From Pseudomonadota bacterium (GTDB lineage: Bacteria; Pseudomonadota; Gammaproteobacteria; Burkholderiales; Methylophilaceae), in contig JAGVMP010000011.1 of NCBI GenBank assembly GCA_020053735.1, forward strand, positions 434,001-498,000: DNA of 64,000 nucleotides, in the 5' to 3' direction. Each line of letters starts with the position of its first letter. Position 1 is the stretch's first letter. Shown here in pieces: positions 4,075 to 58,990 of the stretch. Made by a program: the position numbers and the translations under genes. The notes beneath the pieces were generated by a model, which searched no databases, was not told the origin of the DNA, and was given only the letters and a program-made list of their open reading frames with translations.

Positions 4075-4647
4075 TTATTTTGACAATAACTTGAGCGCCT
4101 GCTTGATACCATCCGCCACACCAATATCTGCTGGCAACTGTTTCGCAGCCAACAATGCCTCTCGGTCATTGTAGCCCAAAGCCACCAACGCATTTAAAAT
4201 ATCATGACTAGCAGATTTTATGCTTCCTGCAGAGGCTAACCCTGCTGCGCCAAATTTATCTTTTAGCTCAAGTAGCAAACGTTCAGCAGTTTTTTTACCA
4301 ATCCCTGGAATACGTGTCAGCATGCCCACTTCTTGCATGCTCACCGCTTGTATTAAATCTTCAATACTCACACCGCTTAAAATAGACAGGGCGGATTTTG
4401 CCCCTATACCATTTACTTTAAGCAATTGTTTAAACGTGCTTTTTTCTTGCTCGGTGCCAAATCCATATAATAATTGCGCGTCCTCGCGCACCACCATATA
4501 GGTCAGCAAATTCACTTTGGTACCTATCTCTGGCAAGTTGTAAAAGGTGCTCATCGGCACCTCAACTTCGTAGCCCACACCACCGCAGTCTAATACGATA
4601 AGGGGTGGTGATTTTTCTATCAATAGCCCGTTTAGGCGTGCAATCAT
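4075..4647 (-). CDS. ruvA: Holliday junction branch-migration protein RuvA
   Basis: A 190-residue protein of normal RuvA length. It starts [15 protein letters not shown] in the N-terminal OB fold, has the two helix-hairpin-helix motifs ([18 protein letters not shown] and [23 protein letters not shown], about residues 70-130), and ends in a domain III helix bundle ([19 protein letters not shown]) that contacts RuvB. RuvA tetramers bind four-way junctions and load the RuvB motor during recombination repair. It follows ruvC across a 160-nt gap holding a palindromic element. ruvB is not next to it here. Confidence 0.98.
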
Positions 4648-4686: not shown

Positions 4687-4811
4687 TTAAAATCATTATA
4701 GCTAAACGAGACAAGGCGCGGATTCAATTTTACGAGAGCGCATACGGGGTTGTATGTAATCGAATAAAATTGAAGGTGCAACGCAGCATCGTAACGCTGG
4801 AATGATTTTAA
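4687..4811. repeat. Long imperfect palindrome, AAGGCGC/AACGC family, copy A
   Basis: Nested inverted arms: TTAAAATCATT (4687-4697) with AATGATTTTAA (4801-4811); TTCAATTTTA (4723-4732) with TAAAATTGAA (4765-4774); CATAC (4741-4745) with GTATG (4752-4756) around a GGGGTT loop. The core reads ACAAGGCGC ... GCAACGC. The right outer arm covers the ruvC stop codon (4808-4810). Confidence 0.8.
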
Positions 4812-5371
4812 ATAAGTCGGCCATTTTTAACGCGAAACCCTGCCGTGGCTAATTTGCCTAAGCCTTGACCACCGTGCGCATGGCAAATCGCACAGGCCAG
4901 CGCATCGGCAGAATCTGGGCTAGGCGTCGCTGGTAATTTTAACAACCTTTTCACCATTTCTTGCACTTGCTCTTTTTGCGCGTGGCCGTTGCCCACTACC
5001 GCTTGCTTCACTTGCAATGCGGTATATTCTGCCACAATTAAATTGCGAATCACTGCCGCACTAATGGCCGCACCACGCGCTTGACCAAGCAATAAAGTGG
5101 ATTGCGGATTGACGTTAACGAATACTTTTTCCACTGCAACTTGATTCGGCTGGTAGGTATCAATCACCTCAAATAGCCCGTCCAATATTACTTTTAGCCG
5201 CGCTGGCAATTCTTCACGATCATCTTCACCTTCTACAGGATTTTTTTTCGCTGAGGCTGTTTTAATGGTGCCACTCGTCACATAAGTGATCTTTTCACCT
5301 ATTTTTTCAATGACCCCAAAGCCAGTGAGGCGTAAACCGGGGTCGATTCCAAGAATACGGATATTTTCCAC
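4808..5371 (-). CDS. ruvC: Holliday junction resolvase RuvC
   Basis: A 187-residue endonuclease with the RNase H-like fold. Visible landmarks are the N-terminal catalytic Asp in [15 protein letters not shown], the acidic residue in [11 protein letters not shown] (about residue 80), and the C-terminal pair in [16 protein letters not shown]. It cleaves four-way junctions after RuvAB branch migration. The insert [20 protein letters not shown] (about residues 34-54) contains an extra acidic loop. It lies between yebC and ruvA, the common yebC-ruvC-ruvA order, though palindromes separate it on both sides. Confidence 0.98.
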
Positions 5372-5392
5372 TTTAGTAACCTACAACCTCAA

Positions 5393-5517
5393 AGAAAATT
5401 AAAAGCTTTAAGTGAGATAAGGCGCAAATAAAAAAAAGTGACGCCGCATATGGGGTATATGCTAGGAACAGTCTTTTTATTTGGCAACGCAATATCACGA
5501 CAAGGTTTTAGTTTTCT
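5393..5517. repeat. Long imperfect palindrome, AAGGCGC/AACGC family, copy B
   Basis: Outer arms AGAAAATTAAAAGCTT (5393-5408) and AAGGTTTTAGTTTTCT (5502-5517) pair at 14 of 16 positions. An inner A-rich/T-rich pair (AAATAAAAA with TTTTTATTT) and a GCATAT-GGGG-ATATGC hairpin (5446-5462) follow. Core AAGGCGC (5419-5425) and GCAACGC (5484-5490). The right outer arm covers the yebC stop codon (5508-5510). Confidence 0.8.
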
Positions 5518-6236
5518 TCTATGACAGCAGTTGTATAAACATCTTGCACATCATCTAGATCATCCAGCGCATCTAATATTTTTTGCATTTTTACTGCGTC
5601 ATCGCCAGTAAAAACTGTTTCCAGTGTGGGTTTCATCAGCACTTCTGCCACCACCGCTTTCAAACCTGCGTTTTCCAGCGCTTCTTTCACCGCCATAAAG
5701 TCATTGGGCGGGGTAATCACTTCAATACTGCCATCCTCGTCGGTGACAATATCTTCGGCGCCCGCTTCAAGCGCGACTTCCATCACTTTATCTTCACTTG
5801 TACCTGGCTCAAAAACCAAACTGCCGCAATGCTTAAACATAAACACCACACTGCCATCGGTACCTAAGTTGCCACCATATTTGCTCAATGCATGGCGCAC
5901 ATCCATCACTGCGCGCTGTTTGTTGTCGGTCAGACAATCAATAATAATGGCGGCGCCATTAATACCATAGCCTTCGTAACGAATTTCTTCGTAATTGACG
6001 CCCTCTAGCTCACCTGTGCCTTTTTTGATGGCTCGCATGATGTTGTCAGCGGGCATGTTTTCTTCTTTTGCCTCGGCCACAGCTGCACGCAAGCGCGGAT
6101 TCATATTGGCATCACCGCCGCCCAATCTTGCTGCAACAGTGATTTCTTTTATGATTTTGGTGAAGATTTTGCCGCGTTTAGCGTCTTGACGACCTTTGCG
6201 ATGTTGAATGTTTGCCCACTTGCTATGACCTGCCAT
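5508..6236 (-). CDS. yebC: YebC/PmpR-family protein (TACO1-like)
   Basis: A 242-residue full-length member. The hallmark start [20 protein letters not shown] is present, followed by the three-domain family pattern ([57 protein letters not shown]). YebC proteins have been described both as transcription factors and as translation factors that relieve ribosome stalling; the sequence does not decide between them. It is upstream of ruvC on the same strand, separated by copy B of the palindrome family. Confidence 0.97.
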
Positions 6237-6300
6237 TTGTTACCCTTTAACACTTAAATTGATTTAAAAACAATATTTTATCACAGGCAATTAGTCGATT

Positions 6301-6404
6301 TTGTCGATTGATAATCGAGTCTAGGCAAGGCGCGCGAGTGCAGACAGTACAACTAGTACGGCAAGCGAGTGTAACGTAGCATCGGCTTGATTAGCATTCG
6401 GCAA
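6301..6404. repeat. Long imperfect palindrome, AAGGCGC/AACGC family, copy C
   Basis: Arms TTGTCGATTG (6301-6310) with CATTCGGCAA (6395-6404), TAATCGAGTC (6312-6321) with GGCTTGATTA (6384-6393, pairing only if G-T wobbles are allowed), and an inner GTAC-AACTA-GTAC (6347-6359). Core CAAGGCGC at 6326-6333 and GTAACGT on the far side. It ends 3 nt before the stop codon of the EamA gene. Confidence 0.65.
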
Positions 6405-6406
6405 TT

Positions 6407-7318
6407 TTACTCTTGGCCTTGTGCGACGCCTACTTCAGCGTGTTTTTTAATAGTTACCGCTGAAATTGTCACCAAGGCTAGCGCAATCAACAGCATACCA
6501 ATAAGCTCAATGTGGCTAGGCCGCTCGCCTAGCTGAACCCATGCCGCGCCAACCCCTATCACCGGCGCTAACATGCTGGCCATGCTCGCCACACCGGCTG
6601 GTAAACGTTGTAAGGCATAAGTCCATAATACCCAAGCCAAGCTGCCACTTAAAAATATGCTATAGATAATTGTAAGGTAAAACGTGTTTGACCACACAAT
6701 AGGCGGCGCAGGCAATATCAGCGCCACGATAATAATAGGAATAGACCCCAACAGCGTTGGCCAAGCGGTGATGTTCAGTAAATCTAACTCTGGCCGACGT
6801 TTATGCAATTTTTTAGAAACAATCGCCGAAATCGCCCATGAGATACCAGAACTCAGTGCCATCAACATGCTGACACCATCCCCTTTAATATGTAGCGGGT
6901 CAAATATCAGCACGATGCCAAACAAGGCAAATGCCACCGCTAGCCATTGCCAGCCCTGCACTTTTTCACCCAGCATCGGCCAAGCAAACAACATCACCCA
7001 AAACGGCATGGTGTAAGACAGTACCGCAGTTTTGCCTGCGCCGCCTTCAACCAAAGCCCAAATAAGTAAGCCTGTAAAGCCGCAAGTTTGCAGAATTCCC
7101 AGCAACAACATGGTGGGAAACTCTTTCAAGGCTAGTGGCCGCTTAGTGGTAACTAGCACCAAAAACAACATGAGCGCGCCTAGAAATGTGCGTAATGCGG
7201 CAAACTGAAATGGGCTGGCATATTGCACCGCCAGCTTCATCACCACCCAGTTGTAACCCCAAATCAGGGTTAATATAAACAGTGCAGCAAAGGCTTTAAT
7301 AATGGATTTATTTTGCAT
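6407..7318 (-). CDS. EamA-family (DMT superfamily) transporter
   Basis: A 303-residue polytopic protein with about ten hydrophobic segments in two EamA repeats (roughly residues 10-145 and 155-290). Motifs typical of the family include LIWGYNWVVMKLAVQYASPFQFAALR in the first helix pair, and AGVASMASMLAPVIGVGAAWVQLGERP near the end of the second repeat. Such carriers usually export metabolites, but the substrate cannot be read from sequence. The gene stands alone between a palindrome and the divergent CBS gene. Confidence 0.92.
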   Translation of the reverse strand: MQNKSIIKAFAALFILTLIWGYNWVVMKLAVQYASPFQFAALRTFLGALMLFLVLVTTKRPLALKEFPTMLLLGILQTCGFTGLLIWALVEGGAGKTAVLSYTMPFWVMLFAWPMLGEKVQGWQWLAVAFALFGIVLIFDPLHIKGDGVSMLMALSSGISWAISAIVSKKLHKRRPELDLLNITAWPTLLGSIPIIIVALILPAPPIVWSNTFYLTIIYSIFLSGSLAWVLWTYALQRLPAGVASMASMLAPVIGVGAAWVQLGERPSHIELIGMLLIALALVTISAVTIKKHAEVGVAQGQE

Positions 7319-14361: not shown

Positions 14362-15750
14362 TTATTTATTCATCACTATATCTAAAATTTCTTGCTCGCC
14401 ATTTGTTGCTTGTTTGTTTTGTGTATTTATTTTAACAATTAACACGCCTTCTTTGGCAATCGCAATGGCCTCATGCACATAAGGCAGTGCAGATATTTTT
14501 TTAGTTAATGCACTTGCCTGCGCTTCCGTCGTCCGCTCTAAATGATACATCTTTGTGCGCACGGCTGGGGGAGTTTTCATGCTAAAAGTCAACAGCAACC
14601 AAATACTCATCAGCACTGCACAAAATACAAATACTGTCGGATAATCATAATGGTGCGCCAAGTAACCACCCACCAAACCACCCACCGCCACACCCAGCGA
14701 CTGGGCTGTATTGTAGACGCCCATCGCAGTGCCTTTAGCGGCGGCGGGTGCTAGTTTTGATATCAATGAAGGCAACGAAGCCTCTAAAATATTAAACGCG
14801 ACAAAATAGGTAAATAGCGAAAATATGATGCCCCAAAAGCTATGAATTAAGCCTGCAAAACAAAGCTGCGCAACTAGCATCAGCGCTACAGCCCCAATAA
14901 ATATAGGCCTTAGCAGACCACGTTTTTCACCCACTATAATCGCTGGTACCATCAATAAAAATGAGCCTAACAAAATGGGCAAGTACACTTGCCAATGATG
15001 GTTCACATCTAAGTTACTGGTATTTTGAATCGCTAGTGGCACCACAATAAACATGGCCATTTGGGCAGCATGCAGCGCAAAAATACCGTAATTTAACCGT
15101 AACAATTGCGTGTTTTTTAGCACATCTTTTAGTTTAGCGGGGGTAGCGCTGGCATCAGAATGGTAACTACTCAATACGGGGTTAGGTACGGCAAATTTAA
15201 CCACTAATATAGCCAAACAAGCCAATACTGCCGTTAACCAAAAAATTCCAGAGATACCCGCCCAGTGTGCCAACGCCGGGCCTAATACCAGTGATATCGC
15301 AAACGTGACGCCAATGGTTGCGCCTATCATGGCCATGGCTTTGGTACGATTTTCTTCGCGCGTTAAATCCGCCAGTAGGGCCGTAACAACAGCTGAAACA
15401 GCACCTGCGCCTTGCAGGGCGCGGCCAATGATTACCGTCGTAATATCTGTTGCTAAGGCCGCAATAATACTGCCAATCACCAGCATGATTAAACCCATAT
15501 AAATGAGTTTTTTGCGCCCAAATTTATCAGATGCCATGCCAAATGGTAATTGAAACAAGGCTTGCGTGAGGCCATAGGCACCTAAAGCGGCACCCACCAG
15601 CATGCTATTATTACCGCCTGTATATTGCGTGGCATAGATGGCAAAAATAGGCAAAATGAGGAACATGCCCAGCATGCGCAAGCCGTAAATTGAGGCCAAA
15701 CTGATGCTCGCCCTAAGCTCATTTTTGGGCATTTTTTCGACTAAAGTCAT
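14362..15750 (-). CDS. YajR-like MFS transporter with C-terminal YAM-type domain
   Basis: A 462-residue protein. Twelve hydrophobic segments span about residues 12-395, with MFS motif A in FGMASDKFGRKKLIYMG and the YajR-like opening LRMLGMFLILPIFAIYATQY. The last 60 residues (ASALTKKISALPYVHEAIAI ... EGVLIVKINTQ) form a ferredoxin-like beta-alpha-beta unit resembling the YAM domain of E. coli YajR. It is a proton-driven exporter of unknown substrate. It is transcribed divergently from uvrA across 79 nt and leads into ssb. Confidence 0.88.
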   Translation of the reverse strand: MTLVEKMPKNELRASISLASIYGLRMLGMFLILPIFAIYATQYTGGNNSMLVGAALGAYGLTQALFQLPFGMASDKFGRKKLIYMGLIMLVIGSIIAALATDITTVIIGRALQGAGAVSAVVTALLADLTREENRTKAMAMIGATIGVTFAISLVLGPALAHWAGISGIFWLTAVLACLAILVVKFAVPNPVLSSYHSDASATPAKLKDVLKNTQLLRLNYGIFALHAAQMAMFIVVPLAIQNTSNLDVNHHWQVYLPILLGSFLLMVPAIIVGEKRGLLRPIFIGAVALMLVAQLCFAGLIHSFWGIIFSLFTYFVAFNILEASLPSLISKLAPAAAKGTAMGVYNTAQSLGVAVGGLVGGYLAHHYDYPTVFVFCAVLMSIWLLLTFSMKTPPAVRTKMYHLERTTEAQASALTKKISALPYVHEAIAIAKEGVLIVKINTQNKQATNGEQEILDIVMNK

Positions 15751-18778: not shown

Positions 18779-19270
18779 CTACTTGTAATAAGCATAAGCA
18801 AACACCGCCAGCATCGTTAGCACTAGCACAATTTTTATTGCCAGCGCCAACACGAAACCTAAGCCAGCGGCAATGCCCACTGCGGTTGCTTTGGTAGTAG
18901 CTTCTTTAGAAGTGTTTTTATGCGTAATCAGTTCACCAATAATGGCGCCGATGGCAGGCCCAATAATCAAACCAACAATGCCACCCGCAATACCCACCAA
19001 AGCACCTATGCCAGCACCCCATAGCGCATATTTGCTGGCGCCCGCTTTTTTGGCAGTAACCACTGAGGCGAAAAAATCCACCGCCCAAGCCATACCAGCA
19101 ATAGCACCTATGATGACCATGGTTAAAATACCCACCTGATCAAACCCACCATGCCAAGCGGCCAGCAACAAGCCCGCAAACACTAATGGCACACCTGGCA
19201 GCATGGGCAGTACCGTGCCTGCTATGCCAATCACAACCAATAAAACCGCAACGATTATTTGCCAATCCAT
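18779..19270 (-). CDS. DUF456 family membrane protein
   Basis: A 163-residue hydrophobic protein with a helix near the N-terminus (MDWQIIVAVLLVVIGIAGTVLPMLPGVPLVFAGLLLAAW), Gly/Ala-rich middle helices (GAGIGALVGIAGGIVGLIIGPAIGAIIGEL, with glycine-zipper spacing) and a C-terminal helix (IKIVLVLTMLAVFAYAYYK). The family is widespread and uncharacterised. It stands alone, convergent with uvrA and separated from mtgA by repeats. Confidence 0.9.
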   Translation of the reverse strand: MDWQIIVAVLLVVIGIAGTVLPMLPGVPLVFAGLLLAAWHGGFDQVGILTMVIIGAIAGMAWAVDFFASVVTAKKAGASKYALWGAGIGALVGIAGGIVGLIIGPAIGAIIGELITHKNTSKEATTKATAVGIAAGLGFVLALAIKIVLVLTMLAVFAYAYYK

Positions 19271-19356: not shown

Positions 19357-19507
19357 AAAAAAACACGTAAATAAGTTTGATTTCTGCGATGTAGTGCAAG
19401 GCGCACAGCGCGCAAAAACCGGAATGTACACGTTAGTACATGAGGATTTTGAGCACTGCGTAACGCCGCAATACGCGCAGAAATCGAATTTAGAACGTGC
19501 TTTTTAA
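19357..19507. repeat. Long imperfect palindrome, AAGGCGC/AACGC family, copy D (longest arms)
   Basis: Outer arms of about 32 nt (19357-19388 and 19476-19507) pair almost throughout with a one-base bulge. They share CGCAGAAATC, then ACGTG, then a T-run. Inside are CAAAAACC ... GGATTTTG and TGTAC ... GTACA. Core GCAAGGCGC and GTAACGC. The right arm covers the mtgA stop codon (19504-19506). Confidence 0.85.
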
Positions 19508-20238
19508 GGGAGTTCGGCAAAGCGCATCCTCGCCTGTATCGTCGCCGTTCGGCGATTCAAATAGCGCGTGCTGCGATGTTTATCGTAAAACCTTGGGTTA
19601 GGCACCATGGCTGCTAATTTTGCTGATTGCGTTTTGCCCAAACCGCCTGCGCTGGTTTTAAAATAATGCCGTGCCGCCGCCTCGGCACCAAACACACCGT
19701 TACCCCACTCAATCATATTCAAATAAAGCTCCAAAATGCGGCGTTTAGTTAGCATTTTTTCCAACATCAGCGTAATCACCACCTCTTCTGCTTTGCGCCA
19801 GGGTGTACGACTGGCCGATAAAAATAAATTCTTGGCCAACTGCTGACTAATGGTAGAGCCGCCTGCAACTAATTTACCTTTTTTAAGATTTTTCTCGTAA
19901 GCTTTCTCGATGCCTTCCCAATCAAAACCTTCATGGTGCTTAAATTTGCTGTCTTCACTCGCCACTACCGCGCGCTTTAGATGATTGGATATTTTGTCGT
20001 AATCTACCCATTTATGTTTCAGCTTGGCATCAGGATTGGTTTCTTGCATCACCTCTAAGCGATCATTCATAAAGCTGGTTGAGCTTGGATTAAATTTAAT
20101 CCACCAACAAATATGCAAAAACACCCATAGTTGATACAAAATCAAATAGGTAAAGAATAAGACAATGAGTCTTTTAAGCAATCCGCCAAAGCCCATGGGG
20201 GCTGCTTTTGGCTTGGTGTTAAATAGCCAGCGAATCAT
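19504..20238 (-). CDS. mtgA: Monofunctional peptidoglycan transglycosylase
   Basis: A 244-residue protein: one N-terminal membrane helix (LIVLFFTYLILYQLWVFLHI, about residues 26-46) followed by a glycosyltransferase 51 domain. The catalytic Glu lies in VVASEDSKFKHHEGFDWEGI; further GT51 motifs are GGSTISQQLAKNLFLS, RKAEEVVITLMLEKMLTKRR and ILELYLNMIEWGNGVFG. It polymerises lipid II outside the inner membrane. Its ATG overlaps the aroE stop (ATGA), so the two are coupled. Confidence 0.97.
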   Translation of the reverse strand: MIRWLFNTKPKAAPMGFGGLLKRLIVLFFTYLILYQLWVFLHICWWIKFNPSSTSFMNDRLEVMQETNPDAKLKHKWVDYDKISNHLKRAVVASEDSKFKHHEGFDWEGIEKAYEKNLKKGKLVAGGSTISQQLAKNLFLSASRTPWRKAEEVVITLMLEKMLTKRRILELYLNMIEWGNGVFGAEAAARHYFKTSAGGLGKTQSAKLAAMVPNPRFYDKHRSTRYLNRRTATIQARMRFAELP

Positions 20239-41907: not shown

Positions 41908-41982
41908 CATTCTGAGCATAGCGAAGAATCTATACTTTTTAGCTATATTCAAACTACTGGATTCTTCGCTATGCTCAGAATG
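41908..41982. repeat. Perfect 23-bp inverted repeat (CATTCTGAG family)
   Basis: Arms 41908-41930 and 41960-41982 are exact reverse complements, beginning CATTCTGAGCATAGCGAAG, around a 29-nt spacer. Right-hand bracket of the second GIY-YIG gene. Confidence 0.92.
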
Positions 41983-54682: not shown

Positions 54683-55927
54683 ATGCAACTTTATACGATT
54701 GGTGTAAATCACACCACCGCACCTATTTCAATTCGCGAGAATGTAGCGTTTTCTGATGCCAATTTGCGCCACGCGCTAAACGATTTAACCACCAATAATG
54801 CGGTGGAAGCGGCTATTTTATCCACCTGTAACCGCACCGAAATTTATGTGCAATCGCAACAAGCCGAACCCATTGTTGGCTGGTTGGCAAGTTATCACAA
54901 ACTCACCCTGAATCAAGTACAGCCTTATACCTACACACTGACCAATCAAGATGCTGTTAAGCACGCTTTTCGCGTCGCCAGTGGCCTAGACAGCATGGTA
55001 TTGGGCGAGCCGCAAATTTTGGGGCAATTTAAGCAGTCGGTCAAAATTGCTCAAGATGCAGGCACGCTGGGCACTTTACTGCACAAGCTGTTTCAGCGCA
55101 CGTTTGAAGTGGCGAAAGAAGTACGCACCAATACTGACATTGGTGGCAGCAGTATCAGCATGGCGGCGGCGGCAGTAAAATTAGCGCAACGTATTTTTGG
55201 CGATATTAACAATCAGCGCGTCTTATTTATAGGCGCTGGCGAAATGATTGCGCTGTGCGCAGACCACTTTGCCGCACAAAAACCAAAAAGTATGACGGTG
55301 GCCAACCGCACTTTAGAGCGTGGTGAAAATTTAGCCGATAAAATAGGCGCGCAAGCCATTTTGCTGCAAGATTTGCCAGCACATTTTGCTGAGTTTGATA
55401 TTGTCATCACCAGCACCGCCAGCCAGCTGCCAATTGTAGGCTTGGGCATGGTAGAGCGTGCCATTAAAGAGCGTCGCCATCGCCCTGTTTTTATGGTCGA
55501 TTTAGCCGTGCCGCGTGATATTGAGCCAGAAGTGGCCAACTTGGATGACGTATTTCTATATACGGTGGATGACCTTGCGCAAGTGGTATCGGATGGCATG
55601 TTGAACCGCCAAGAATCTGCCGTTAATGCAGAAATGATTGTGCAAGCGCGTGTAGAAAGTTTTATGCAATGGTTAAAAAAACGCGATGCCGTGCCCACCA
55701 TCAAAGCGCTGCGCAACCAAGCAGAGGCGATGCGCCAAGCAGAATTAGACAAAGCACTTAAGCTGATTCAAAAAGGCGAATCGCCCGAAAAAGCGCTGGA
55801 AGCCCTAAGCAACGCGCTCACCAACAAGTTTTTACACGCGCCCAGCCATGCCTTGAATCTTGCCCATGGCGATGAGCATGCCAAGCTAGAAAATATCCTA
55901 AAACAGCTCTATCAGATAAAGATTTAA
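54683..55927 (+). CDS. hemA: Glutamyl-tRNA reductase
   Basis: A 414-residue enzyme. The catalytic Cys lies in [13 protein letters not shown] (about residue 50), with the conserved N-terminal [15 protein letters not shown] and [22 protein letters not shown]. The NADPH domain has [17 protein letters not shown] and VTIANRT-like [10 protein letters not shown], and a C-terminal dimerisation helix follows. It makes glutamate semialdehyde for the C5 route to heme. TAAAAT lies just before the start, possibly as a -10 box. A palindrome fills the gap to prfA. Confidence 0.97.
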
Positions 55928-55929
55928 GA

Positions 55930-56073
55930 GGAAATTTCTAAAAATGCTAATTGTGGGATGTAGTACAAGGCGCACGGAGCGCAGAAACCGAGATAGTACG
56001 GGGTTGTACAGCGAGGTTGCGAGCACCGCGCAACGCTGTAATACGCCCAGAATTTGATTTTTTAGAGATTTCC
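55930..56073. repeat. Long imperfect palindrome, AAGGCGC/AACGC family, copy E
   Basis: Outer arms GGAAATTTCTAAAAA (55930-55944) and TTTTTAGAGATTTCC (56059-56073) pair at 14 of 15 positions. Inside lie the core ACAAGGCGC, GTAC-GGGGTT-GTAC and CGCAACGC, plus TGTAGTAC ... GTAATACG. The element spans the hemA-prfA gap from 3 nt after the hemA stop to 2 nt before the prfA ATG. Confidence 0.85.
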
Positions 56074-56075
56074 AA

Positions 56076-57158
56076 ATGAAACCCAGCATGTTAAAAAAAC
56101 TCGCCACCCTCAGCGAGCGCCTAGAAGAATTAAACCGTCTGATGAGTAGTGAAGGCGTCACCAACAACATGGATAATTATCGGAAAATTACCCAAGAGCA
56201 CGCTGAAATTACACCGATTGTTGAGCAATACCACGTGTTTGAGCAAGCCGAAAAAGATATCGCCGAAGCGCAAAGCATGTTGAGCGACCCTGACATGAAA
56301 GAATTTGCACAAGAAGAAATTGATGCAGGCAAAGCTAAATTGGAGCAGGTAGAAGCGACTTTACAATTGCTGCTGCTACCCAAAGACCCCAATGACGACA
56401 AAAACATCTTTTTAGAAATCCGCGCAGGCACCGGTGGTGATGAATCTGGCTTATTTTGTGGCGACTTATTTAGAATGTATTCAAGATACGCTGAGCGTCA
56501 AAAATGGAAAGTCGAAGTGATGTCAGCCAATGAGTCAGAAGTCGGCGGCTACAAAGAAATTATCGCCAAAATTGAGGGTTACGGCGCGTATTCAAAACTC
56601 AAATTCGAATCTGGTGGCCACCGCGTGCAGCGTGTACCCGATACCGAAACGCAAGGACGCATTCACACCTCCGCCTGTACAGTCGCTATTTTGCCCGAGG
56701 CTGACGAAGTGAGTGACGTGGTCATCAACCCCGCGGATATTCGTATTGACACTTACCGCGCCAGTGGCGCTGGCGGCCAGCACATTAACAAAACCGATTC
56801 TGCCGTACGTATTACCCATGCACCCACGGGCATTGTGGTGGAATGCCAAGAAGGGCGGAGCCAGCACGCCAACAAAGCGCAAGCCATGCAAGTGCTAGCC
56901 GCGCGCATTAAAGCCAAACAAGTAGATGCGCAAAATAGCGCGATTGCTAGCGAGCGCAAAAGTTTGATTGGCAGTGGCGACCGTAGCGAGAGAATTAGAA
57001 CCTACAACTACCCACAAGGCCGCATTACCGACCACCGCATCAACCTGACGCTATACAAAATTGACGCGATTACTGAAGGTGATATGGACGAACTGATTGG
57101 CGCACTGATGGCTGAACATCAAGCTGATTTGCTGGCGAGTTTGAGTGATGATAATTAA
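56076..57158 (+). CDS. prfA: Peptide chain release factor 1
   Basis: A 360-residue RF1. The stop-codon-reading tripeptide is PDT in [18 protein letters not shown] (usually PAT or PVT). The GGQ loop is [18 protein letters not shown] (about residues 226-243), whose Gln is methylated by PrmC. It ends translation at UAA and UAG. The likely ribosome site (TAGAGAT) falls in the right arm of palindrome copy E. Downstream are an unknown membrane-protein gene and prmC. Confidence 0.98.
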
Positions 57159-57924: not shown

Positions 57925-58899
57925 ATGACCAACTCCCAATCCATCCAAACTACTCTTTCACTTGCCGCCACTCAACTAAAAACGCAAGGCATTGAAACAG
58001 AAACTGCAAAACTAGAAGCACAATTGCTACTGCAACATGTACTAAATGTAAATCGTGCGTGGTTAATATCACATCAAAACGATCCTCTGGAATCCAATAT
58101 CCATGCGGCCTACAGAGCACTGATTAATCGTCGTTTAAATGGCGAGCCAATTGCGTATATTTTGGGTGTGCGTGAATTTTACGGATTAAACCTTAAAGTC
58201 GCTCCTGCTACGCTGATACCGCGGCCCGATACTGAAACTTTGGTAGAGGCTGCTTTAGCAAAGATTCCTCAAAACGTCACTTTTTCCGAACCGTCATTCC
58301 CGCGTAGGCGGGAATCCAATTTGAATTTAAACCAGGAGTTGAATTTAAACCAAAAAATGGATTCCCGCCTACGCGGGAATGACGAAATTAAAGTGCTAGA
58401 TTTAGGCACAGGCTCAGGTGCGATTGCATTAGCCATTGCCAAACATCGCCCACAAGCCTGTGTATTGGCGCTTGACGCTTCACAAGCCGCGCTGGATGTT
58501 GCTATTGAGAACGCGCAAAGCTTAAAAATATCTAACGTAGATTTTGTGTTGAGTGATTGGTTTTCAGCATTAGGCGAGCAAAATAACACACAAAAATTCG
58601 ATCTTATCGTCAGCAACCCGCCCTATATAGAAGCCAATGACGCGCATTTAAGCCAAGGCGATTTACGCTTTGAGCCAATCTCTGCGCTGGCGTCAGGGCA
58701 AGATGGTTTAGACGATATTCGCCGCATCATCCGCCAAGCGCCGCAATATCTTTACTTACATGGTTGGCTGCTGCTGGAGCATGGCTATAATCAAGCCGAA
58801 CTAGTCGCAGCATTATTCAAGCAAGCTGGGTTTAATGAGATTAGTCATGCCCGAGATTTAGCGGGAATTAACCGCGTGACGTTAGGAAGGCTTTGCTAA
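57925..58899 (+). CDS. prmC: Release factor glutamine methyltransferase PrmC, with an in-frame repeat insertion
   Basis: 324 residues versus about 280-290 for the family. The N-terminal helical domain (LEAQLLLQHVLNVNRAWLISH) is followed by RRLNGEPIAYILGVREFYGLNLKVAPATLIPRPDTETLVEAAL, the SAM-binding VLDLGTGSGAIALAIA and the catalytic NPPY in DLIVSNPPYIE. Between about residues 123 and 153 an inverted REP pair is translated (FPRRRESN ... DSRLRGND), placed just before the SAM-binding strand. It methylates the GGQ Gln of release factors. A piece of another repeat coincides with residues 57-64. Confidence 0.95.
   Translation: MTNSQSIQTTLSLAATQLKTQGIETETAKLEAQLLLQHVLNVNRAWLISHQNDPLESNIHAAYRALINRRLNGEPIAYILGVREFYGLNLKVAPATLIPRPDTETLVEAALAKIPQNVTFSEPSFPRRRESNLNLNQELNLNQKMDSRLRGNDEIKVLDLGTGSGAIALAIAKHRPQACVLALDASQAALDVAIENAQSLKISNVDFVLSDWFSALGEQNNTQKFDLIVSNPPYIEANDAHLSQGDLRFEPISALASGQDGLDDIRRIIRQAPQYLYLHGWLLLEHGYNQAELVAALFKQAGFNEISHARDLAGINRVTLGRLC
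58094..58115 (-). repeat. GCATGGATATT-family repeat segment inside prmC
   Basis: The minus strand of this 22-nt segment is identical to 7910-7931 (stem and loop of the CBS-gene terminator). It encodes NIHAAYR in an otherwise normal stretch of PrmC, without adding length. Confidence 0.7.
58293..58383. repeat. Inverted REP pair translated within prmC
   Basis: Two 26-bp copies (58293-58318 and 58358-58383), exact reverse complements, each with the CCCGC-GTAG-GCGGG hairpin, surround a 39-nt spacer. The spacer holds a direct repeat TTGAATTTAAACCA. The whole is in frame with no stop codon. Confidence 0.95.
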
Positions 58900-58907
58900 C
58901 AAATGCA

Positions 58908-58990
58908 CTGGATTGCTTCGCCCAAGTTAAAACCTTAGGCTCGCAAAGACAAGCATTGTCATTGCGAGCCTTTAGGCCGACGCAATCCAT
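58908..58990. repeat. REP-like doublet between prmC and metX
   Basis: GGATTGCTTCGCCCAAGTTA ... CTCGCAAAGAC faces GTCATTGCGAGCCTTTAGGC ... GCAATCC. The CCAAG-TTAAAA-CCTTAGG loop resembles that at 28130-28150. Confidence 0.85.

Follow-up and report, generated by a model that had tools for sequence, protein, structure and literature searches.

A probable MITE-like hairpin family with a constant core and paired, variable arms in intergenic gaps of a Methylophilaceae genome and other bacteria

Five palindromes in the window, the whole stretch of 64,000 nucleotides analysed here, are likely copies of a gene-less, MITE-like hairpin element, a new family of a known kind that occurs in many bacterial genomes. 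This reading is based on inverted-repeat ends and target-site duplication in copies from other genera, empty orthologous sites, a large number of copies without genes, and patchy presence. A search of the window against Rfam 15 gave no match at the gathering score. The five copies, named c1 to c5, are as follows.

c1: 4687..4812, plus strand, CATATG-like subfamily; model match 4689-4809, 76 bits; fold z -5.8
c2: 5393..5517, plus strand, CATATG subfamily; model match 5394-5515, 81 bits; fold z -4.7
c3: 6295..6406, plus strand, decayed, with a short inner stem; model match 6305-6400, 27.4 bits; fold z -2.4
c4: 19357..19507, plus strand, GTAC subfamily; model match 19373-19491, 113.6 bits; fold z -8.1
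c5: 55930..56073, plus strand, GTAC subfamily; model match 55942-56061, 110.7 bits; fold z -5.8

The plan of outer arm, AAGGCGC, inner arm, small hairpin, inner arm, AACGC and outer arm, as put forward in the original prediction, was recovered in all five stretches, c3 being short and decayed. Each copy folds into a single long hairpin that encloses a conserved, asymmetric internal loop, AAGGCGC / AACGC, although for c3 the fold is weak (5 of 200 shuffles fold equally well when single strands are compared with shuffles) and the model match has an E-value of 0.0011 in the window search and 0.011 genome-wide. The spacing pattern of the core matches five times in the window compared with 0.58 times per shuffle, and none of 100 shuffles reaches five. 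Four of these matches are copies, while the fifth (15360-15413, minus strand) has no covariance-model match; c3, which is short and ends in AACGT, is missed by the pattern.

The core lies on the plus strand in all five cases, with c1 to c4 between minus-strand genes and c5 between plus-strand genes. According to Pfam, c1 is flanked by ruvA (4075-4647, minus) and ruvC (4808-5371, minus), overlapping the 3' end of the latter by a few bases, and c2 by ruvC and yebC (5508-6236, minus), whose stop codon falls inside the right arm of c2. The neighbours of c3 are yebC and an EamA-family gene (6407-7318, minus), those of c4 a DUF456 gene (18779-19270, minus) and a transglycosylase gene (19504-20238, minus), and those of c5 the genes of glutamyl-tRNA reductase (54683-55927, plus) and release factor 1 (56076-57158, plus). 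Integron attC sites, which offer an analogy as folded sites with variable arms, lie beside an integrase and cassettes, whereas the five window copies sit between ordinary housekeeping genes.

In the 2.44 Mb genome from which the window comes (hereafter the source genome), a covariance model, R1, gave 55 matches at E ≤ 0.01 and 62 at E ≤ 1, so that the element, at approximately 120-146 bp and without genes, is both short and numerous. The simpler core pattern matched 28 + 14 times genome-wide against 7 + 3 for a reversed control; therefore, some of these pattern matches are due to chance. For the analyses below, a set of 55 copies was used, consisting of 53 of the 55 model matches (two weak ones were left out), c3, and a copy at L094:2885-2987 which the genome-wide model search did not list. 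Two copies of opposite orientation and different inner types lie only 36 bp apart (L171:2006-2277). Another copy, L172:2898-3017, abuts a gene start. In relatives, the gene apparently starts with an ATG at this position; judged by eye, the source genome seems to have lost this ATG and may use a TTG as start codon. The search of genome and relatives with a covariance model, suggested in the original prediction, found matches in 41 of 61 genomes, the source genome included, and all 14 genus mates are among them. The same search listed 50 matches in the source genome and 5-20 in each of the genus mates. This excess may reflect an expansion in this lineage; incomplete genomes partly confound the comparison, as does a model built from the source genome's own copies.

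Pairing of the arms is far above controls, and a constant core, self-complementary arms, and a structural constraint are supported; that the arms might be no more complementary than expected by chance was examined and does not hold. Fifteen copies align in a single register with 85.7% of cells paired, compared with 64.2% after shuffling and no more than 46.9% after sliding, and change on both sides is seen at each of the 21 outer pairs, the structure behind these figures being partly derived from the same alignment. Across the 55 copies, the modelled ends read AAA/TTT (39-49 copies per position and side). Within these ends, 11 positions have a weak consensus base or none at all; Watson-Crick pairing there amounts to 64-84% within a copy versus 25-37% across copies, and here the model, built from 15 of the 55 copies with the outer pairs assumed, favours pairing. 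In the three unmodelled bases beyond, pairing is 55-65% versus 31-39% across copies, and it is at control level from the fourth base outward. A slight excess is seen again at some bases 10-14 outside the model, where decayed ends may lie; by eye, the outermost ends are mostly decayed in the source genome.

The arms were originally described as unrelated in sequence from copy to copy, which is not borne out: the inner arms fall into two main subfamilies with a GTAC and a CATATG hairpin, respectively, and the outer arms constitute diverged types that recur in non-orthologous copies and in other genera. Recurrent types at unrelated loci are AAAATGCAAAGTTCTAAGTNAGAC-like (CATATG type) and AAATGCAGAATTTGGGATGCAGTAC-like (GTAC type). 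The expectation that copies elsewhere would not share arm sequence fails in part, as such types recur at unrelated loci and in other genera, and the locus-specificity of the arms is therefore apparent, not absolute. Simple transposition of a fixed sequence, disfavoured in the original prediction, is not quite the right description either, as paired changes distinguish the copies found in a single genome. Among ten strictly defined GTAC-type copies of the source genome, 11 of the 45 pairs share a core identity of at least 85%, and the median identity of their variable zone is 0.32, near chance; GTAC-type variable zones pair with their own partner at 0.71 versus 0.33 across copies.

At sites shared within the genus, 36 copy pairs with matching flanks on both sides were compared, the flanks mostly being 70-88% identical. 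The arms are at least 80% identical in 21 of these pairs and less than 65% identical in 12, while random copy pairs have a median arm identity of 53%; one pair (O34/O80), which falls into neither counted class, joins neighbouring sites. At a given site, then, one finds either the same element with its arms retained or an element that is different or heavily altered. A side observation concerns the site C1:40960, where different species harbour different elements and where a third, GAGATGAAGTGCTAGGAGCCGCGGAGCGAATGA-like subfamily is found in G002, G007, and G003 (L245:3140-3258, L248:3345-3463, and L251).

How the arms change in place was followed in 13 pairs judged by eye to represent the same element. 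In 12 of them, two-sided changes number 3 among 192 arm positions, one of these being paired in both species, and one-sided changes number 28. The exception is c1 and its diverged counterpart at the same site in the close relative G001 (L112:819-937), with several paired arm changes, the count in this tally (10 of 16) being inflated by a one-base offset between the two matches. Rapid compensatory drift in place was rejected as a general source of arm variety, since 21 of the 36 pairs keep their arms and changes are mainly one-sided. A related explanation, to which we assign a rather low probability, is that the arms are rewritten in concert within the hairpin, by template switching or hairpin mismatch repair, and so drift as a pair. 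Such a process would account for the paired changes of c1, which occurred despite flanks that are 87-92% identical, and for two adjacent base pairs swapped on both arms between G013 and G005 (O63/O64), whose arms are otherwise mostly the same. It fits poorly with the preponderance of one-sided changes in the other same-element pairs and with conserved mismatches in the core and the arms, which have not been erased.

The insertion itself can be studied at orthologous sites. Two regions and two genes of the source genome, taking in twelve copies, were compared with relatives, above all with G001, which is 82-92% identical in most compared stretches and 69% beside c3. Clean empty sites with a gap of 5-33 nt were found in G001 for seven of the twelve copies: c2, c5 (33 nt from stop to start), C1:40960, C1:42112, C1:42827, C14:143897, and C14:145715. 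Four are not clean, namely c3, C14:142482, and the pair C1:39505/39659, in place of which G001 has other sequence. A very similar copy of c2 occupies the same site in the more distant G013 (L181:2620-2741), and its absence from G001 is therefore probably a loss. No copy was seen at C1:42112 in any of the eight relatives in which both flanks could be aligned, so this copy is probably a gain.

These empty sites bear on two explanations that place the origin of the arms at the insertion point. The original prediction favoured copying of the flank at this point into an inverted arm, as the arms vary between loci and adjoin stop codons, the right arm of c2 even holding the end of the yebC frame. 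When empty orthologous gaps were compared with the arms as proposed there, however, the arms did not equal the pre-insertion flank: none of the seven empty sites in G001 contains arm sequence, and the arms of a copy fit its own empty site about as well as those of the other six copies do. One arm of C14:145715 fits slightly better (12/18 versus at most 11 for others). Together with the recurrence of arm types at unrelated loci and in other genera, this leaves flank copying highly improbable. Hardly more credible is the idea that the core was inserted into the loop of a terminator hairpin already present, the stem of which would have become the outer arms. Like a two-way terminator, the modelled arms terminate in tracts of A and T, but the same seven clean sites, with their gaps of 5-33 nt, contain no arm sequence to supply such a stem, and convergent genes flank only 3 of 51 copies, for which reason a convergent-gene terminator reading was rejected. 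Taken as a whole, the observations of the original prediction largely hold and are partly confirmed, whereas its interpretation, partly supported, mostly does not.

Beyond the genus, the exact core pattern was found in at least 118 stretches of species-level genomes. These include Halomonas, Billgrantia, Litchfieldella, Salinicola, Marinobacterium, and Pseudomonas peli, among others, and also Gallionella, Sideroxydans, Tepidiphilus, Rhodocyclaceae, Methylotenera, and Trichlorobacter thiogenes; many entries are metagenome bins, whose taxon labels may be wrong. Of 80 extracted copies, 75 were used to study ends and direct repeats (five with odd cores were dropped), the core of this set being fixed in part by the search pattern. 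Pairing in the 75 copies reaches about 38 bases beyond the core and ends near GG/CC. In these genera the element measures about 146 bp, is bounded by inverted repeats, and is flanked by short direct repeats. Three-base direct repeats directly outside the ends occur in 28 of 75 copies, compared with 2.4 expected from mismatched flanks, at a setting among the best in a scan of 64 end positions and four lengths; they correspond to the target-site duplication of a MITE.

The ends, which may resemble those of IS5-type insertion sequences, differ by lineage: they are GGAAACGCTGAATAAATC-like in halomonads, GGGCACCTCGAAAAACC-like in several Betaproteobacteria, and CAGGCTGTTGAAAAACG-like in Gallionella and Geobacter. 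On contig L373, two end types are found on closely similar cores. Shared terminal inverted repeats were detected in eight other genomes, with 9-67 matches of an inverted-end motif each and none in the reversed control; among the matches listed for five of the eight genomes, inverted pairs of the motif span approximately 140-280 bp. In one Litchfieldella (halomonad) genome, 17 copies that were selected for the core plus one or more end motifs vary by paired changes within a short stretch that separates the ends from the core. An inverted pair of otherwise unpaired ends at the length of an insertion sequence, as expected for an autonomous partner, was not found among the 100 matches listed, out of 116, to a single end motif in a single genome. 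Carriage by phages or plasmids was rejected, as a single query retrieved the element from 1 of 72,556 plasmid records and from none of 50,697 phage records.

The usual definition of a MITE rests on conserved ends flanking an interior that varies. In the family described here, the arms covary, and the interior seems to be better preserved than the ends, which counts against the MITE reading. No named family with this rule was found in the open-access literature, as the original prediction had supposed, which is weak support because subscription papers are mostly outside this coverage; the enterobacterial element ERIC, however, shares the plan. ERIC (RU-1) is a 127-bp MITE of enterobacteria and Vibrio with a consensus printed in PMC2759123, and like the present family it is a gene-less, intergenic palindrome over its full length and of the same size class. 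The other strand of the printed E. coli consensus (PMC2759123) reads CAAGGCG-N60-CAACGC, with 26 and 28 bases outside, and thus has the core motif pair of the present family at a similar spacing. Such an arrangement arose in 3 of 60,000 shuffles of the consensus, for a motif pair that was chosen after the consensus had been seen. An E. coli ERIC copy that has lost CAACGC scored 10.4 bits (E 0.49) with R1 and 7.9 bits (E 1.5) with R2, another model of the family, neither score being significant, and a sequence profile of the family did not match the ERIC consensus. ERIC ends in TA with TA duplications, as described in PMC2759123, whereas GG/CC ends with three-base repeats are seen here in other genera; the ends in the source genome are too decayed for this comparison. 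Eroded ends are also reported for Vibrio cholerae ERICs (PMC2267715). From the sequences, kinship with ERIC is suggestive but unproven.

Three other kinds of known repeat invite comparison. BRE, compared by description only, is likewise a chromosomal and usually intergenic repeat of Betaproteobacteria with up to 29 copies in Polaromonas sp. JS666, but it is described as 75-91 bp long, with 69% G+C in Bordetella and some tandem arrays (PMC3110155). NEMIS/Correia, RUP, and other bacterial MITEs are small and share inverted-repeat ends, target duplication, and stem-loop transcripts (as presented in PMC2229807 and PMC10969869); their terminal repeats are characteristic of each family, whereas in the present one a shared core is surrounded by ends that vary and covary. 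REPs, also intergenic palindromes in many copies, are given as 20-40 bp in PMC3733652 in contrast to approximately 146 bp here.

The gene context of the hairpins bears on a different explanation. Apart from 4 of the 55 copies without two callable neighbours, 46 of 51 copies in the source genome lie between co-directional genes, three between convergent, and two between divergent genes (simple ORF calls). In the window, 42 of 56 gene pairs are tandem, and the excess of tandem contexts among the copies (binomial p 0.006, Fisher p 0.03) is modest. The rule that every copy begins or ends at a stop codon was found to be a tendency: copies do lie near gene 3' ends, at a median of 9.5 bp between the 3'-facing gene end and the modelled element (n=52, six of them at 87-292 bp), but 5'-facing gene ends are close as well, with a median of 27 bp (n=50, simple ORF calls). 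This tendency may arise because the gaps are short and coding sequence is protected.

It is conceivable, though we would not expect it, that the element is in the first place a functional RNA, an intercistronic hairpin of whatever origin that processes or stabilizes polycistronic mRNA and is kept by structural selection. Beside the tandem contexts, the 21 of 36 flank-matched pairs with at least 80% identical arms speak for this explanation; with flanks mostly 70-88% identical, this is more conservation than a dead insertion should show, and it counts against the MITE reading. The nearest precedent for such a putative function would be ERIC in Yersinia, where hairpins in mRNAs alter transcript stability according to the accounts in PMC2229807 and PMC10969869. 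Against it, no preference for one strand was found: in tandem contexts, 19 copies lie on the strand of the genes and 27 on the opposite one. Counts of G-T versus A-C (53 versus 32 in the source genome copies; 101 versus 56 in the 75-copy set, a hand sum over i=21-38) were set aside as a sign of strand-specific RNA, for two of these G-T positions are nearly fixed in the ends of the one halomonad genome. Further points against it are the mostly one-sided changes of the arms in place, the many orthologous gaps without an element, the lack of an Rfam match in the window, and the modest size of the tandem excess.

For the MITE-like element that we prefer, the following picture can be drawn. From the outside in, it would be composed of inverted-repeat ends of about 20 bp, a short variable and self-complementary spacer, the core (CAAGGCGC...GCAACGC), an inner stem, and a small hairpin. 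A transposase supplied in trans would bind both ends and insert the element with a short target duplication. Surviving copies would be those in short intergenic gaps, mostly between co-directional genes and often at a stop codon. The arms would covary because both must pair, either as a DNA or RNA hairpin or as matching ends bound by the transposase; the paired change shows that pairing matters at some step, be it transposition or RNA. Between lineages, the core would have been retained as the ends split into several diverged types, and many copies in the source genome have decayed ends and therefore look locus-specific. More speculatively, and in our view improbably, ERIC could be one branch of a larger superfamily of hairpin MITEs in Pseudomonadota and some Desulfobacterota, with a conserved recognized core, exchangeable ends rewritten as pairs and served by different transposases, and copies between co-directional genes often kept as mRNA-processing hairpins.

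Palindromes of other types were also noticed. In the window, a different, near-perfect palindrome with 31-nt arms at 97%, CGTCATTCCCGCGTAGGCGGGAATCC / reverse, is located at 58292-58384, a perfect 23-nt inverted repeat, CATTCTGAGCATAGCGAAGAATC, at 41908-41982, and a third palindrome type, AGGCTCGCAAAGACAA/TTGTCATTGCGAGCCT, at 58937-58971. In G005, the ruvC-yebC gap (L114), the place of c2 in the source genome, is filled by a CATTCCCGC palindrome resembling the one at 58292-58384, and an intergenic gap (L247) holds a CATTCTGAGC...GAAGAATC palindrome resembling the repeat at 41908-41982. GTCATTGCGAGC palindromes are found in G005 gaps (L114, L247) corresponding to copies of the source genome. 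It may be that palindromic repeats of several unrelated kinds are drawn to the same gene gaps.

The family explains a recurring intergenic feature of many environmental Proteobacteria for which Rfam has no match in the window, and the covariance models now serve to annotate the element. The paired change of transposon ends becomes traceable across orthologous sites, and pairs of sister species with and without a copy are natural material on what intercistronic hairpins do. If the link to ERIC is true, a well-known enterobacterial repeat would gain relatives in many more lineages.
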